Positions 9,404 through 23,212 of a stretch of DNA of 64,000 bases are shown in pieces. Both the position numbers and the translations under genes were made by a program. Where the stretch lies: positions 310,001 through 374,000 of the forward strand of contig NZ_KB908215.1 in the NCBI RefSeq assembly GCF_000382365.1, written 5' to 3'. The notes under the pieces were generated by a model, which was not told the DNA's origin, made no database searches, and worked only from the letters and a program-made list of their open reading frames with translations. The DNA comes from Pannonibacter phragmitetus DSM 14782 (GTDB lineage Bacteria; Pseudomonadota; Alphaproteobacteria; Rhizobiales; Stappiaceae). The first letter of the stretch is position 1. The number at the start of each line of letters is the position of its first letter.

Positions 9404-10065
9404 CACCAATCTCCCCGTGGGCTTCCCCGTTAGGCTTATATTCCTACATAATACGTCAGCAATCCGGGGTGAGGGATAAGTTTCCTAGCAACCTTTAAGG
9501 GCGCGCAGATATCCGCCATTTCTCCCCACGCCTCCCGGCCAGGTGATGATGGATAAATTCCTGACTGGCACCCCAGACAGGACACCGGAGCCTGAGCCTC
9601 TTTGATGTCTGAGACGTCAGCATCGAAGCCTTGGCAGCTCCTTTAGGCGTGAAGGGAGCCCGGATGCATGAACCGCCAGTGCCGGACAAAGTGTTCTGGA
9701 TGCGCCTTGAGCGTCTTGGGCTTGGAACAGGGCTGCCGGAGCAAAGGGCAGCAGCCAATGGTCTTCCGGTCCTGCTGCTCCGCCTGATACGTGCCATGCG
9801 GGCAGAGCGGGCAAGGTGCCGTCAAGGGCACTGGACAGGCGACATCAACCGCCTTGCCGGACTGCGCTCTTCCTTCCGCACATTGTGGCCCCTGCGCCAC
9901 TCTTGCCGCCGCTGAGTTTGCCCTGCCGGCGGCTCATCTCAAGCAATTCGAACAGACAGGGGAGCCAGCTTTTCATCTCAAATGGCTTCACGCCAAAGAG
10001 ACAGCACTCTCACCGCCATCTCTTTCAGTGCCGCGCCTGAAGCTTCAAGGATACCGGCCCCAAAA
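9404..10065. other. Long intergenic region, no confident gene
   Basis: About 660 bp between the DnaA-like gene and the mucR terminator. The part next to 9404 (to about 9490) is AT-richer and probably holds the promoter of the DnaA-like/DUF6456 operon. Open frames exist on both strands between 9500 and 10050, including a cysteine-rich minus-strand frame at 9643-9900 (PCPLCPHGTYQAEQQ). None has a good ribosome site or a family resemblance I recognise. A decayed gene is possible. Confidence 0.4.
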
Positions 10066-17799: not shown

Positions 17800-17822
17800 G
17801 CCCTCTCCCCGCCTTGAACGCC

Positions 17823-17850
17823 AAAAGGCCCGGCACAGGGCCGGGCCTTT
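17823..17850 (-). terminator. Terminator hairpin after sodB
   Basis: An 11-bp inverted repeat (AAAGGCCCGGC at 17824-17834, complement at 17840-17850), followed on the minus strand by TTTTGGCG. It is 15 bp beyond the sodB stop. Confidence 0.75.
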
Positions 17851-17865
17851 CAACGAAACGGAAGC

Positions 17866-18468
17866 TTACTTGGTTGCAGCTTCGTACATTTCCAGGACGT
17901 AGTCCCAGTTGATCAGATTGTCGACGAAGGCCTCGAGGTACTTCGGACGGGCGTTGCGGTAGTCGATGTAGTAGGAGTGCTCCCACACGTCGACGCCGAG
18001 GATCGGGGACGCGCCCTGCACCAGCGGGCTTTCGCCGTTGGCGGTCTTGGAGATGATCAGCTTGCCATCCTTGACGGCAACCCAGGCCCAGCCGGAGCCG
18101 AACTGGGTGGTGCCGGCAGCGATAAAGTCGGCGCGGAACTTGTCATAGCCGCCCAGATCGCTGTCGATGGCCTTGGCCAGAGCGCCCGGGATGGACTTGC
18201 CGCCACCATTCGGCTTCATCCACTTCCAGAAATGGATGTGGTTGTAGTGCTGGCCTGCGTTGTTGAAGAGGCCGGCGTTCTTGCCGAAGCTCTCCTTGAC
18301 GATCTCTTCCAGCGTCTTGCCTTCGAGGCCGCTGTCCTTCAGCAGGTTGTTGCCGTTGGTCACATAGGCCTGATGGTGCTTGTCGTGGTGATACTCAAGC
18401 GTCTCCTTGGACATGTAGGGACCAAGAGCGTCATAGGCATACGGCAGTTCGGGAAGTTCGAAAGACAT
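17866..18468 (-). CDS. sodB: Superoxide dismutase, Fe type
   Basis: A 200-residue cytosolic enzyme that converts superoxide to hydrogen peroxide and oxygen. The metal ligands are visible: His27 in LEYHHDKHHQAY, His77 in NHIHFW, and Asp160 and His164 in GVDVWEHSYYIDYRN. FNNAGQHYNH carries Gln73, the position used by iron-type enzymes for the outer-sphere glutamine; manganese types have Gly there. So iron (or cambialistic) is the better call. The start is fixed by a perfect AGGAGG seven to eight bases upstream of 18468. It is probably a single-gene unit with the hairpin terminator at 17823. Confidence 0.96.
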   Translation of the reverse strand: MSFELPELPYAYDALGPYMSKETLEYHHDKHHQAYVTNGNNLLKDSGLEGKTLEEIVKESFGKNAGLFNNAGQHYNHIHFWKWMKPNGGGKSIPGALAKAIDSDLGGYDKFRADFIAAGTTQFGSGWAWVAVKDGKLIISKTANGESPLVQGASPILGVDVWEHSYYIDYRNARPKYLEAFVDNLINWDYVLEMYEAATK

Positions 18469-18729
18469 GGCAAATCCTCCTTCAGGAAAGCTGTGGTGCG
18501 GCCCGGCTGCATTCAATCATGCTGGCCCGGCCCTTCCGGAGCTGCGGGGAAGCAGCTCGCGCCGGGATGCAAAATAGGCGTCTTCTCGCTCGTGAGCAAT
18601 GCACCCGGGCAAATAAAAAAATATTTTTCTTGGTTTATTAGCTGGAACCATTTCAGGCGCGCAGCGTTCTGCGCCTCCCCGCGCTCACAAGGACGAAATC
18701 CGTGCGTCCTTAAAACCGGAAGCAAGATC

Positions 18730-18745
18730 TTAACAGCCCGTTAAC
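18730..18745. promoter_or_regulatory. Candidate CtrA binding site upstream of the thermonuclease gene
   Basis: The sequence TTAACAGCCCGTTAAC is a perfect TTAA-N7-TTAAC, the consensus of the alphaproteobacterial cell-cycle regulator CtrA. It lies 62 bp upstream of the nuclease start and about 260 bp upstream of the divergent sodB start. The match is seen; binding is inferred. Confidence 0.45.
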
Positions 18746-18806
18746 CCTTGCTCCCCAGACTTCCCGCAAAGCCACATAGGCCTCGCCTGATTCCGGGATT
18801 ACCGCC

Positions 18807-19523
18807 TTGAAAACACACGCAGTCCGGCCATCCCTCCGGAGCAGTCTTCCGCTTGGCGCGCTGGTTTTAGCCGCATGCATCGCCGGCGGCGCAGCCCCGC
18901 TCACGTTTCAGGCACTGAAGGTCACGGACGGCGATACGATCGTGCTGAACGGTGAAAAAATCCGCCTGGAAGGGATTGACGCGCCCGAGATGGCACAGCG
19001 CTGCCTGACGCCAACAGGTCAGGAGTACCGTTGCGGCAAAGAGGCGGCAGATGCACTCAGAACATTCCTTTCAAACGGACCGGTGGTTTGCAAGGGCGCC
19101 ACGCTTGATGACTACGGCCGCCGTTTGGGTACCTGCTATTCCGGCGCGCTCAACGTGAACGCGGCCATGGTAGAGAGTGGCCACGCCTTCGCATTCATCC
19201 GCTATTCCTCAAGCTACGTTGCCGAAGAAAGCCGTGCGCGCGCCGGCAAGGCGGGCATGTTTGCAGGCAAAGCCGAAGCCCCCTGGGATTTCAGGGCAGC
19301 CAAGTGGCAGAACGCCAGCGCCCAACGGCAGGTGCAGGCCTCAGCAGACGCGCAAAAGGAATGCCCGATCAAGGGCAACATTTCCAAAGGCGTACGCATC
19401 TACCATATGCCCTGGTCAGCCTCCTACGCCAAAACCAGCATCAACGAAAGCAAGGGCGAGCGCTGGTTCTGTTCGGAAGCCGAAGCCATTGCTGCGGGCT
19501 GGCGGGCACCGCGCGGCAGCTGA
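18807..19523 (+). CDS. Exported thermonuclease-family (SNase-like) nuclease
   Basis: A 238-residue protein with an N-terminal hydrophobic signal (LPLGALVLAACIAGGAA) followed by a staphylococcal-nuclease-like OB fold. Key residues are present: KVTDGDTIVLNGEKIRLEG with the metal-binding Asp and the catalytic Arg, then GIDAPEM, CGKEAADALR, DDYGRRLGTCY with the second catalytic Arg, and VESGHAFAF. The C-terminal 60 residues (CPIKGNISKGVRIYHMPWS, WFCSEAEAIAAGWRAPRG) match the small module often found after such nucleases. The only reasonable start is TTG at 18807, since a stop lies ten codons upstream. It probably acts in the periplasm or outside the cell. A CtrA-type box lies upstream. Confidence 0.87.
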   Translation: MKTHAVRPSLRSSLPLGALVLAACIAGGAAPLTFQALKVTDGDTIVLNGEKIRLEGIDAPEMAQRCLTPTGQEYRCGKEAADALRTFLSNGPVVCKGATLDDYGRRLGTCYSGALNVNAAMVESGHAFAFIRYSSSYVAEESRARAGKAGMFAGKAEAPWDFRAAKWQNASAQRQVQASADAQKECPIKGNISKGVRIYHMPWSASYAKTSINESKGERWFCSEAEAIAAGWRAPRGS

Positions 19524-19533
19524 CTCTCAGCCC

Positions 19534-19887
19534 TCAGCGTTCACACTTCTTCGCAACTATGGCAACCGTGCTCGCCAGCGTTTTTATCGTCAAGCCGGGA
19601 ACCATCCCCCCGGCTGCCAGATCGAGCATTTCATCCGGCAACTCGTCAATCTCCAACGGGCGCGGCAGCACAAGAACGGCCTCTCCAGGCTGCTCTTCAA
19701 TAACCCGGATGGCGTAACCCGCAACCGGATTGAACCCCAGCAGCTCTTTCAGCGCGCCTTGCGGGTCACGAACGAGGCGCCCCCGGAAGTCCGCATCCTC
19801 CAGGGCCTTTTGCACAAGAGCAGCCTCAACCTCCTTGCGTGCACTCTCGATCTCACCGGGCTGAGAGCTGGCAGTTGCCACGGACAT
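19534..19887 (-). CDS. Orphan NHLP-type RiPP precursor peptide (nitrile hydratase-like leader)
   Basis: A 117-residue protein. Residues 18-94 follow the NHLP leader pattern (homologous to the nitrile hydratase alpha subunit, used as leader by proteusin and TOMM-type RiPPs): KALEDADFRGRLVRDPQGAL, then a YAIRVIEEQPGEAVLVLPRP strand region, then DELPDEMLDLAAGG. The double Gly at 93-94 is the usual C39-peptidase cleavage point. The 23-residue putative core (95-117) starts MVPGLTIKTLAS and has one Cys (115), with Ser and Thr as possible modification sites. The start is fixed by AGGAGGG upstream of 19887. No maturase, cyclodehydratase, radical SAM enzyme or C39 transporter is encoded within 19 kb on the left or 44 kb on the right. 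It ends 10 bp from the convergent nuclease gene. Confidence 0.85.
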   Translation of the reverse strand: MSVATASSQPGEIESARKEVEAALVQKALEDADFRGRLVRDPQGALKELLGFNPVAGYAIRVIEEQPGEAVLVLPRPLEIDELPDEMLDLAAGGMVPGLTIKTLASTVAIVAKKCER

Positions 19888-20051
19888 ATGTTTCCCTCCT
19901 GATGACGGCAGCGACCGGAAGAGCCACTGCTCCAAGGCCGCTCAACGAACGTGAAGCAGCTTGAAGCAGGAAAGCTTAGTGCGCAGAGGCAACGAAGCGG
20001 AAAAAGACCCGAAAAGTGCCGGCCCCTGCCTCTTCACTGAATCAACCTGCT

Positions 20052-20510
20052 TCAGCGGCTCGTCCGCTCGGCCTTCGCCGCCATGATGTTGGGGGTGTTG
20101 ACCTCCAGCCAGTCTGCCAATGCCCGTACACGCTCCGCTGCCTCGCGGCCCAGCGGCGTCAGGCTGTATTCCACATGCGGCGGCACCACGGGCAGCGATA
20201 CCCGGTCGATCATGCAATCTCCCTCCAGCTGCTGCAGCGTCTGCGCCAGCATCTTCTCGCTTACACCGCCCACCTTGCGGCGCAACTCGCTGAAGCGGTG
20301 CGTGCCCTCCAGCAGCGCCAGCAGGATCAGCACACCCCAGCGGCTGGTCAGGTGATTGAGAATTTCCCGCGACGGACAGGCCACGCTGAACAGTGCGCCC
20401 CGGCGCATCAGCTCCGAAAGCGGCTGCCCCGTGACCAGATCCGGCATGACATCCACACACCCGGCTTCGGAAGAGATTTTTTCATCTCTATCCAACCCGC
20501 TGTTTTCCAT
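20052..20510 (-). CDS. HxlR-family transcriptional regulator
   Basis: A 152-residue winged-helix regulator. The HxlR core is clear: CPSREILNHLTSRWGVLILL, then EGTHRFSELRRKVGGVSEKM, LAQTLQQLEGDCMIDR, VPPHVEYSLTPLGREAAERV. A Cys at the start of the domain (ACPSREIL) is the position used for redox or aldehyde sensing in several relatives. The start at 20510 has AGGAGA upstream. It is divergent from qorB; the same HxlR/qorB pairing is known in Escherichia coli as ytfH/ytfG, so it very likely controls the quinone reductase in response to electrophile or quinone stress. Confidence 0.9.
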   Translation of the reverse strand: MENSGLDRDEKISSEAGCVDVMPDLVTGQPLSELMRRGALFSVACPSREILNHLTSRWGVLILLALLEGTHRFSELRRKVGGVSEKMLAQTLQQLEGDCMIDRVSLPVVPPHVEYSLTPLGREAAERVRALADWLEVNTPNIMAAKAERTSR

Positions 20511-20663
20511 ATCTTTTCTCCTGAAAAGCACATCCGGCAGACACGCCCTTCCACTAACTTACCAAATTGTATGTACTTTCCAAAAGAAAGTACATAGCGC
20601 ATATCTGCCCCATTGCACCGCTCCGGTGATCCCGCCGGAGCGCTTCAACAGATGGAGCCGCAT

Positions 20664-21518
20664 ATGAAATTCGCCATCACCGGCGCTTCCGGCCAGCTTG
20701 GCCGCCTCGTTGCCGAAGCCCTGCTTGCCACCGAACCGGCAGCCTCGCTGCGCCTGCTCGTCCGGTCCCCGGAAAAGGTTGCCGATCTTGCCGCACGCGG
20801 CGCCGAAGTGGCTGCCTTCGACTATTCCAGGCCCGAAACCCTCGCACCGGCGCTTGCCGGTGTGGACCGTCTCCTGCTCATCTCCGGCAGCGAAGTCGGC
20901 CAGCGCGTGCCGCAGCACAAGGCCGTCATCGAGGCTGCGAAGGCAGCCGGTGTAGGCCTCGTCCTCTACACCAGTGTCCTGCGCGCCCAGCAGTCCGGCA
21001 TGATCCTCGCCGGTGAGCACAAGGCTACGGAAGACATGCTCGAGGCATCGGGCCTCGATTATGTTCTGCTGCGTAACGGCTGGTACATCGAGAACTACCT
21101 GTCCGCCGTGCAGGCCGAAATCGCCCATGGTGTCGTTGGCGCCTCGGGAGAAGGCCGCATTTCCGGCGCAGCCCGCGCCGACTATGCCGCGGCTGCCGCT
21201 GAGGTCCTGCGCCAGGGCGCCCCGTCCGGCACCATCTATGAGCTGGCCGGCGACACCTCCTTCAGCAAGGCCGACTACGCCGCCGAGCTGTCCCGCGCCT
21301 CCGGCAAGCCGGTCACCTACACCAATCTCCCGGAAGCAGCCTACAAGGACGTTCTCGTGCAGGTCGGCCTGCCGGAAGGCTTTGCCGCCATTCTGGCCGA
21401 CTGCGACACCTGCACCGCCAAAGGCGATCTGGAAGACAACAGCAAGACCCTGTCCAGCCTGACAGGCCGGCCGACAACGCCGCTGTCCGTCATGGTCGCA
21501 GAGGCCGTGAAGGGATAA
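20664..21518 (+). CDS. qorB: NAD(P)H quinone reductase, NmrA-like SDR (QorB/YtfG type)
   Basis: A 284-residue Rossmann-fold protein starting MKFAITGASGQLGRLVAEAL, with the GASGQLG nucleotide-binding loop of the atypical short-chain dehydrogenase NmrA group. Other QorB-like features are GVDRLLLISGSEVGQRVPQH, the LVLYTSVLRAQQSGMILAGE stretch and LRNGWYIENYL. QorB reduces quinones with NADPH in the cytosol. The divergent HxlR gene supports this identity over a general NmrA-like protein. ATG at 20664 has ATGGAG upstream. It is followed by a strong intrinsic terminator. Confidence 0.88.
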   Translation: MKFAITGASGQLGRLVAEALLATEPAASLRLLVRSPEKVADLAARGAEVAAFDYSRPETLAPALAGVDRLLLISGSEVGQRVPQHKAVIEAAKAAGVGLVLYTSVLRAQQSGMILAGEHKATEDMLEASGLDYVLLRNGWYIENYLSAVQAEIAHGVVGASGEGRISGAARADYAAAAAEVLRQGAPSGTIYELAGDTSFSKADYAAELSRASGKPVTYTNLPEAAYKDVLVQVGLPEGFAAILADCDTCTAKGDLEDNSKTLSSLTGRPTTPLSVMVAEAVKG

Positions 21519-21541
21519 CCCCCAACCGCCTTTCATGCTGC

Positions 21542-21581
21542 AGGACCGCTCCCGGCAATCACCGGGAGCGGTCCTGTCTTT
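21542..21581 (+). terminator. Rho-independent terminator of qorB
   Basis: A 14-bp perfect inverted repeat (AGGACCGCTCCCGG at 21542-21555, complement at 21562-21575) with a six-base loop, then GTCTTT. It is 23 bp after the qorB stop and also lies just past the end of the convergent opp operon. Confidence 0.82.
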
Positions 21582-21586
21582 GCCAA

Positions 21587-23212
21587 TCACACAGCCGCAT
21601 GCGCCGTTGGCAGCATGGCTGCGGCAATCAGACGGCGCGTATACTCCTCGCGCGGCGCCTCGAACACGTCTGCCGCAGGCCCTGCCTCGACGATCTTGCC
21701 GTGCTGCATCACCATCACCGTGTCCGACATGGCCCGCACCACCGCCAGATCATGGCTGATGAACAGATAGGTCAGACCATGGGCACTCTGCAGGTCGCGC
21801 AGCAGCGTCACGATCTGCTTCTGGATCGTCCGGTCCAGCGCCGATGTGGGCTCGTCCAGCACCATCAGATCCGGCTTCAGCACCATGGCGCGGGCGATGG
21901 CGATACGCTGGCGCTGGCCGCCGGAGAACTCGTGCGGATAGCGGTTGCGCATCACCGGATCGAGTGACACCTCTTCCAGTGCCTGACAGGCCCTGCGATC
22001 GCGCTCGGCCGCGCTCAGGCCCGGCTCATGCACCAGCAGCCCTTCGGTGATGATCTGGCCCACGGTCATGCGCGGGCTCAGCGAGCCGAACGGGTCCTGG
22101 AACACCAGCTGCATATGCTTGCGCAGCGGCCGCATCTGCGCCTTGCTCTTGTCCGAGATGCGCGTGCCGTTGAAGAACACACGCCCATCAGAAGGCATCA
22201 GCCCCAGCAGCGCCCGGCCCAGCGTCGATTTGCCCGAGCCGCTCTCGCCCACGATGCCAAGCGTCTGCCCCTTGCGCACGGTCAGCGAAATGTCGTTCAC
22301 CGCCTTCAGGATGAAAGGCTTCGTCAGCAGCCCGCCGCCAAGGGCGAACTCGACCGACACCTTCTGCCCCTCGATCACCACCGGCGCCGAAGCATCTACC
22401 GGTGCCTTGGTGCCTTCCGGCTCTGCGTCCAGCAGCATGCGGGTGTAGTCGTGGGCGGGGGTGTCAAAGATCTTTGCCGTAGCGCCCTCTTCCACCACCT
22501 CGCCCTTGCGCATCACATAAACGCGGTCCGCAATCCGCCGCACGATGCCCAGGTCATGGGTAATGAACACCACCGCCATGCCCAGCCGCTTCTGCAGATC
22601 CGCAAGAAGATCGAGGATCTGCGCCTGCGTCGTCACATCCAGCGCAGTGGTCGGCTCGTCGGCGATCAGCACGTCCGGGTCATTGGCCAGCGCCATGGCG
22701 ATCATCACGCGCTGGCGCTGCCCGCCGGACAGCTCATACGGATAGGACTTCAGCTTGCGCTCAGGCTCGGGGATGTTGACGAGCTTGAGCAGCTCCAGCG
22801 CCCGCGCCTTCGCCTTGGCCCAGCTCAGGCCGCCATTCTCCACCATCGGCTCGCATAGCTGGCGGGAGATGGTGTAGAGCGGATCAAGCGAGGTCATCGG
22901 CTCCTGGAAGATCATGGTGATCTTCTTGCCGCGCACCTGGTTCAACTCGCCGGTCTTCAGGCCGAGGATGTTGCGGTCCCGGTAGAGCACACGCCCGCCG
23001 GTGATGCCGTTGGACGCCAGCAGCCCCATGGCCGCCATCATGGTCTGGCTCTTGCCCGAGCCGCTTTCGCCCACGATGGCGACCGTTTCGCCGCGGTTGA
23101 CGTGGATGTCGACACCCCGCACGGCCTCGACCATTCCTGTGTTGGTGCGGAAGTTGACCGTCAGGCCTTCGATCTTCAGCACCGCTTCGTTCTGGTTCTC
23201 AGATCCCGTCAT
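21587..23212 (-). CDS. Oligopeptide ABC transporter, fused double ATPase (OppD-OppF type)
   Basis: A 541-residue protein with two complete ABC ATPase domains in one chain. The first has Walker [17 protein letters not shown], signature [15 protein letters not shown] and Walker [14 protein letters not shown]. The second has [31 protein letters not shown] and [12 protein letters not shown]. Each is followed by an oligopeptide-type C-terminal extension. It energises import of the substrate brought by OppA. The start at 23212 is chosen because it directly follows the oppC stop; the upstream frame lies inside oppC. It is the last gene of the four-gene operon. Confidence 0.94.

Follow-up and report, generated by a model that had tools for sequence, protein, structure and literature searches.

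A lone gene in Pannonibacter phragmitetus DSM 14782 probably encodes a trans-acting, selidamide-like RiPP precursor that would work with machinery encoded on another contig of the genome, C8. The gene lies in the window, the 64,000-nt stretch analyzed here, which is positions 310001-374000 of contig C1 (genome G000). It has a conserved NHLP leader ending in a GG cleavage motif, a short putative core unlike any other, and relatives whose genes adjoin tandem GNAT genes. The site contains the following features, in window coordinates.

18807-19523, forward strand: thermonuclease-like protein with a sunset domain, the left flank, outside the system (Pfam/NCBIfam).
19506-20063, no strand: 558-bp segment that has no counterpart in Pannonibacter indicus and contains the NHLP gene (blastn flanks).
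19534-19887, reverse strand: NHLP-family RiPP precursor gene, ATG start, 117 aa (TIGR03793 match).
19606-19887, reverse strand: leader, residues 1-94, with ...DELPDEMLDLAAGG at its end and GG as the C39 peptidase cleavage motif (TIGR03793 residues 17-94; invariant columns of alignment A3).
19537-19605, reverse strand: putative core, residues 95-117, MVPGLTIKTLASTVAIVAKKCER (follows GG; identity to other cores about that of shuffled cores).
19894-19900, reverse strand: ribosome site AGGAGGG, with the ATG 6 nt downstream (sequence).
20052-20531, reverse strand: HxlR-type regulator, the right flank, not a RiPP-type gene (Pfam/NCBIfam).

The window protein matched the NCBIfam model TIGR03793 (leader_NHLP) at 55.5 bits, over the cut-off of 50.9, and is on this evidence a member of the NHLP precursor family. 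Protein residues 17-94 aligned with profile positions 2-77 of 77. The leader ends in DLAAGG and is followed by 23 core residues with 3 Thr, 1 Ser, 1 Cys (residue 115) and 3 Lys (102, 113, and 114). An earlier sequence-only reading of the window had described this leader and core and the ribosome site, and all of these were confirmed. The ribosome site suggests that the precursor is translated. A scan for sigma-70-like promoters and terminators around the gene gave no match. The profile score and 54 distinct relatives exclude a chance open reading frame. A structure model of the precursor was of low confidence (pLDDT 56.3) and carries no weight here.

The same reading had called the gene an orphan, with no modification or C39 genes in the window. 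For the window this holds: the tandem-GNAT profile found nothing there, and none of the genome's C39, YcaO, LANC_like, or radical SAM matches falls within it. An ABC2 query gave weak window matches from four frames. For the genome the term fails. G000 has 12 TIGR03793 matches over seven contigs, with two on C8, two on C20, four on C22, others on C1 (the window) and C24, and weak ones on C18 and C2, and C8 encodes both an exporter and GNATs. The C8 stretch (L009) encodes ABC2, ABC1 with its C39 domain, HlyD, and a channel of the outer membrane. It also has NHLP and GNAT genes, two of each, together with genes for a histidine kinase and a response regulator. Its NHLM components scored 969.3 bits for ABC1 (cut-off 853.3), 304.7 bits for HlyD (cut-off 156.2), and 707.2 bits for ABC2, which is 2.2 under the cut-off of 709.4. 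The genome-wide search for a C39 peptidase that had been proposed thus led to this NHLP exporter. Between the C8 exporter and precursors is a 391-aa frame (L009 8123-9298) that matched no Pfam or NCBIfam family, and its P. indicus counterpart (L057 6862-8001, 379 aa) had no Pfam match. These C8-type frames of 379-391 aa may encode either an unknown protein or enzyme or nothing, as spurious frames.

GNATs of the tandem family are found in G000 on contigs C8, C2, and C6, and none is in the window precursor's own cluster. C6 has a second C39 protein with its own GNAT and Nif11-like precursor. This system (L070 9203-14664) consists of a C39-ABC protein, an ABC protein, a Nif11/NHLP-like precursor with core IPPRPSMKDFGKGSKISFG, and a tandem GNAT; the P. 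indicus match to the C6 GNAT has one internal stop. At the C2 locus (L014 9908-11229), a single tandem GNAT is the immediate neighbor of a precursor whose core is GAQQCAISLVGSKLRT, and the 20 kb examined gave no NHLM exporter match.

NHLM ABC1 (E <= 1e-200) was detected in at least 9 of 87 family genomes, with 8 over the cut-off. Carriers are all five Pannonibacter genomes plus G040, G063, G072, and G084. Each Pannonibacter genome has 11-13 NHLP-model matches, weak ones included. Many NHLP-model matches in other genera cover about positions 18-72, are set within long frames, and resemble nitrile hydratase chains. A tandem-GNAT profile was built from alignment A1 (14 GNATs) and applied at E <= 1e-15. 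It matched in at least 7 of the 87 genomes, all with the exporter among the matches listed. The 15 GNAT matches listed are C8-type pairs in five genomes, those on C2 and C6 of G000, one on C23 of G008, and one each in G040 and G072. Every one of the 15 has a precursor or a C39/NHLM exporter nearby, and the C39 domain was confirmed in the neighbor of the G008 C23 GNAT.

A GNAT adjoins a class-I NHLP (>100 bits with the A3 profile) in 14 of 15 genomes or records examined, which were picked by NHLP similarity, not by GNAT, and with Azospirillum B510 and a Paenibacillus plasmid left out. The 14 comprise five from Pannonibacter, two from Rhizobium (RU36D and an assembly from a metagenome), four from a single genus of another family, and three singles (Shinella plasmid p1, Magnetospirillum, and one Novispirillum). 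The other-family genus came from an even draw of 397 order genomes, at least six of which matched, two being Pannonibacter. Its four genomes have an ABC gene upstream of the GNAT, and the one tested has a C39 domain. In the 15th case, Novispirillum G465, the GNAT lies between the same neighbors as in G464 and the NHLP is elsewhere, with none in 20 kb around the GNAT. For a Novispirillum NHLP that was an orphan at first sight, a single-type GNAT was predicted elsewhere and then found. A structure model of the Rhizobium GNAT (319 aa, pLDDT 88.6) has the tandem GNAT fold, with VipF as best PDB match. The linked enzymes are tandem GNATs, a type that the earlier reading did not name.

Other arrangements were also observed. 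In Shinella the NHLP gene is flanked by a GNAT gene and by a radical SAM gene whose product has a B12-binding domain. The genes on plasmid p1 (L101 13885-18094) follow one another as GNAT, NHLP, that radical SAM gene, a Nif11-type precursor, and a second GNAT, with an NHLM exporter nearby. Given this radical SAM gene, GNATs need not be the sole maturases of the precursor class. Plasmid pHM2 of Rhizobium sp. SSA_523, typed mobilizable, has a lone NHLP precursor (L102 14980-15306) in 30 kb without a GNAT or exporter match. G084 has three NHLPs beside an NHLM exporter (L093 13032-14300) and no GNAT match there; at least two of the cores are long, hydrophobic, and Gly/Ala-rich.

The following mechanism is proposed. 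Judging from linkage, the tandem GNATs of C8 would recognize the conserved leader. As enzymes of this type, they would acylate the short core, probably with a fatty acid, the candidate sites being Lys 102, Lys 113, Lys 114, or Cys 115. By family, the C39 domain of the NHLP exporter would cut after ...LAAGG, and ABC1/ABC2/HlyD with the outer-membrane channel would carry the core out. Scattered precursor genes would thereby yield a set of different secreted acylated peptides, the window precursor being a species-specific member gained or lost as a single gene. Secretion and diversity allow a guess at an ecological role of the product. The earlier reading had offered two branches, tailoring genes elsewhere that act in trans or another role for the precursor; the C8 GNATs and the linkage in relatives make the first the likelier, short of proof. 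Alternatively, the GNATs of C8 may accept no precursors other than the two encoded beside them.

The cores contain a further pattern. Exactly one Cys is present in 49 of 49 distinct class-I cores from two-GNAT genomes (Pannonibacter and Rhizobium), two of the 49 tails being without GG and cut approximately. Its position ranges from the fifth residue to the 26th. Six of the 49 cores have no Ser or Thr, and therefore Ser/Thr-dependent chemistry is not the common reason for the Cys. Four of 49 (3 of 47 without the two GG-less tails) have no Lys, and therefore Lys is not the sole target. Leaders have 1 Cys in 4875 residues (55 sequences, a few from other genera). With a single class-I-type GNAT, Cys is found in 1 of 11 distinct cores and Lys in 11 of 11. 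One core with a Cys, in Novispirillum stretch L165, lies next to a GNAT of the single type. Of the 13 low-scoring NHLP tails in two-GNAT genomes, 1 contains Cys. The C2 locus has a single GNAT, yet a Cys in the core of its different precursor type. In a GNAT tree of 34 rows, which leaves out six matches (L156, L157, L158, L160, L163, and L164), the two copies are sister clades of 7 rows each, joined at support 100/97, and other GNATs fall outside. The contrast between two-GNAT genomes with one Cys and the rest is confounded by descent, with two genera set against four, and for this reason a Fisher test of it does not count as independent evidence.

A speculative reading, which we hold to be doubtful, is that the GNAT was duplicated in Pannonibacter and Rhizobium and that the thiol is a substrate or a requirement of the second copy. 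Products would be doubly acylated, S-acylated, or acyl-transferred via the Cys, and would derive from dispersed, swappable precursors that spread as single genes. If true, the thiol reading would describe a GNAT-based counterpart of the prochlorosins and a new acceptor chemistry. The exactly-one-Cys pattern is a simple handle on the role of the second GNAT.

The single Cys also suits the best-surviving rival to acylation, in which the C8 NHLP exporter, acting in trans, cuts and secretes a core that stays unmodified and perhaps forms a disulfide dimer. The presence of that exporter in the genome, the absence of a tailoring gene beside the precursor, and one Cys in each of the 49 distinct cores agree with this account. 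It is unlikely in view of the GNAT that adjoins a same-class precursor in nearly all genomes or records examined, and of the GNAT profile matches listed in the family, which sit near precursors or exporters.

Several observations on unlinked precursors bear on trans action, the preferred reading. In the stretches scanned, neither a GNAT nor an NHLM exporter is adjacent at the window, C22, C24, or C20 loci. Core families NAK[DE]CWWKFNQWAYKQDW and A[FY]KGCKGD occur in arrays next to the GNAT pairs of G007, G009, and G010. The same two families are found on C22 of G000 and C4 of G008, contigs other than those of the GNATs and exporter. Even with abutting contigs, the C22 array and the exporter would be separated by at least ~17 kb, and the array and the GNATs by at least ~27 kb. 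Flanks of the C24-type orphan match in all five Pannonibacter genomes. Its core starts [TV][SG]FS[AS]F[IV]LYGPPY, and cores starting [TVI][SG]FS[AS]F are GNAT-adjacent in other genera. Between G000 and G008, a single species pair, the C24-type leader has dN 0.010 and dS 0.25, and the core dN 0.063 and dS 0.21. Because core families are shared, C24 flanks are conserved, and dN is below dS, unlinked precursors such as these are kept as working genes, and the window precursor itself may be used likewise.

C20-type loci in all five Pannonibacter genomes (L010 9332-10166 on C20, and L053, L056, L064, and L069) encode two or three NHLPs with long cores that lack Cys, and no GNAT or exporter match is beside them in the fetched stretches. 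NHLPs of Pannonibacter (L009 9356-9706) and Rhizobium (L082 5691-5918) have cores that share the start VGVSDNL and lack Cys, and the Rhizobium leader is shortened. The orthologous NHLP genes L011 9584-9919 and L058 5433-5768 have identical cores and diverged leaders (leader dN 0.144, core dN 0), as if paralogues had exchanged the leader.

Leader and core of the window protein differ in conservation. The leader has a mean identity of 49% to 54 distinct relatives (>100 bits with the seed profile, two of them C20-type). Mean identity of the core to the 54 other cores is 0.13, versus 0.126 after shuffling of those cores. Alignment A3, which holds the window protein and 26 relatives, has 17 invariant columns, all of them within the leader. 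Relative to three paralogues, the window leader has pN 0.28-0.32 and pS 0.61-0.75, with pS near saturation. The conserved leader and variable core that the sequence-only reading expected across relatives were thus found, and together with a dedicated exporter in the genome they bear out its identification of a RiPP precursor.

The gene is present in one of five Pannonibacter genomes. At the matching site P. indicus has 36 bp (L100 4669-4704) in place of the 558 bp, a net extra of ~520 bp in the window, and its thermonuclease and HxlR frames abut directly. By blastn, window 17817-19505 equals L100 2980-4668 at 89.5% identity on the left, and window 20064-21700 equals L100 4705-6340 at 87.8% on the right. 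The A3 profile found no NHLP within 10-11 kb around the HxlR gene in the four other Pannonibacter genomes. The simplest account of this one-gene difference is a gain in the window lineage, with loss elsewhere as the alternative. No direct repeats were found at the edges of the extra segment, and a single 11-nt inverted pair lies inside the gene. Because the edges lack repeats, no insertion mechanism is put forward.

A gene found at this site in a single genome, with a unique core and no promoter-like match, might be a silent leftover, recently arrived or decaying, that makes no product. This explanation is improbable, somewhat more so than an unmodified peptide, for a frame that is intact, has a strong ribosome site, and encodes a leader typical of its class. 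Leader pN below pS relative to the three paralogues, even with pS near saturation, and purifying selection on sister orphans also argue against it.

The enzymes proposed earlier for tailoring, LanM-like, radical SAM, and YcaO, were mostly not borne out. Modification by the genome's only YcaO, on contig C18, would give a thiazole- or oxazole-type product, and NHLP leaders do serve such enzymes elsewhere (PMC2887384). It is very unlikely here, since that YcaO is unlinked to the window gene, scored 94.5 bits with the SagD model in G000 against a cut-off of 219.25, and lies (L013 7651-9123) by a different, weak NHLP-like frame (9754-9930, 28.9 bits). A lanthipeptide with an NHLP leader was rejected, as PF05147 (LanM/LanC-type cyclase) had no match in the genome. 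Radical SAM gave 10 matched stretches in the genome, none on C8, C18, C20, C22, or C24. The nearest to an NHLP are ~207 kb away on C1 and ~320 kb away on C2, and a linked maturase of the proteusin type was rejected for G000. An MNIO on C7 was likewise rejected, as neither an NHLP nor a GNAT nor an exporter was matched in the 20 kb around it (L139).

A non-RiPP protein related to the nitrile hydratase alpha chain is hardly credible and was rejected as an enzyme: Pfam NHase_alpha matched below threshold (22.6 vs cut-off 27.2), while the protein's 117 aa cover just part of such a chain, it has a GG motif and a TIGR03793 score over cut-off, and its core identity is at the shuffled baseline. The earlier reading would have favored a non-RiPP protein had conservation been uniform and tailoring genes been absent from relatives; the core is unconserved, and GNATs adjoin relatives' precursors.

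Cluster mining seeks precursors next to enzymes and would overlook the window peptide and the other unlinked precursors. Should the GNAT pair act on the scattered precursors, one small cluster could produce many lipopeptides, with new ones acquired as single genes. A literature search that covered few subscription papers turned up no description of scattered precursors with a GNAT pair, no such RiPP from Pannonibacter, and no mention of exactly one Cys per core.

Among known systems, selidamides (phaeornamide and kamptornamide) and nostolysamides are RiPPs that GNATs acylate, and their leaders are of the NHLP or Nif11 type. The acceptor of selidamide GNATs is (hydroxy)ornithine or Lys, and NpuN is a Lys-acylating enzyme with a tandem GNAT fold. 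These systems share with that of Pannonibacter the NHLP leader, GG site, C39 exporter, and tandem GNAT fold. In their N-terminal halves, most of the 14 A1 GNATs share a P-loop-like motif with selidamide GNATs; by strict pattern it is absent from GNAT2 of G000 and G008. Phaeornamide and nostolysamide carry lanthionine rings, whereas the Pannonibacter genome has no LanC-like protein, and the phaeornamide system also has a peptide arginase. Unlike selidamides, the Pannonibacter system has two GNATs side by side, and the window precursor is unlinked. By analogy, the window precursor presumably works as precursors of the selidamide type do; with no GNAT gene linked to it and its product unseen, it is not classed among the selidamides.

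Pelotomaculum thermopropionicum and Azospirillum sp. B510 have NHLP arrays, described by Haft et al. (2010) with the link between NHLPs and the NHLM exporter (PMC2887384). Pannonibacter resembles these in its many NHLPs per genome, hypervariable cores, and NHLM exporter. In that report, the arrays are discussed with a cyclodehydratase or LanM-like enzyme, whereas Pannonibacter has GNATs. Prochlorosins provide the parallel for dispersed precursors. ProcM/SyncM are encoded with many scattered precursors, some of them lone genes in unrelated neighborhoods (PMC10783134). Both systems have one enzyme set presumed for many precursors, with leaders alike and cores unlike. Prochlorosins use a lanthionine synthetase and Nif11 leaders, whereas Pannonibacter would use GNATs, of presumed promiscuity, and NHLP leaders.
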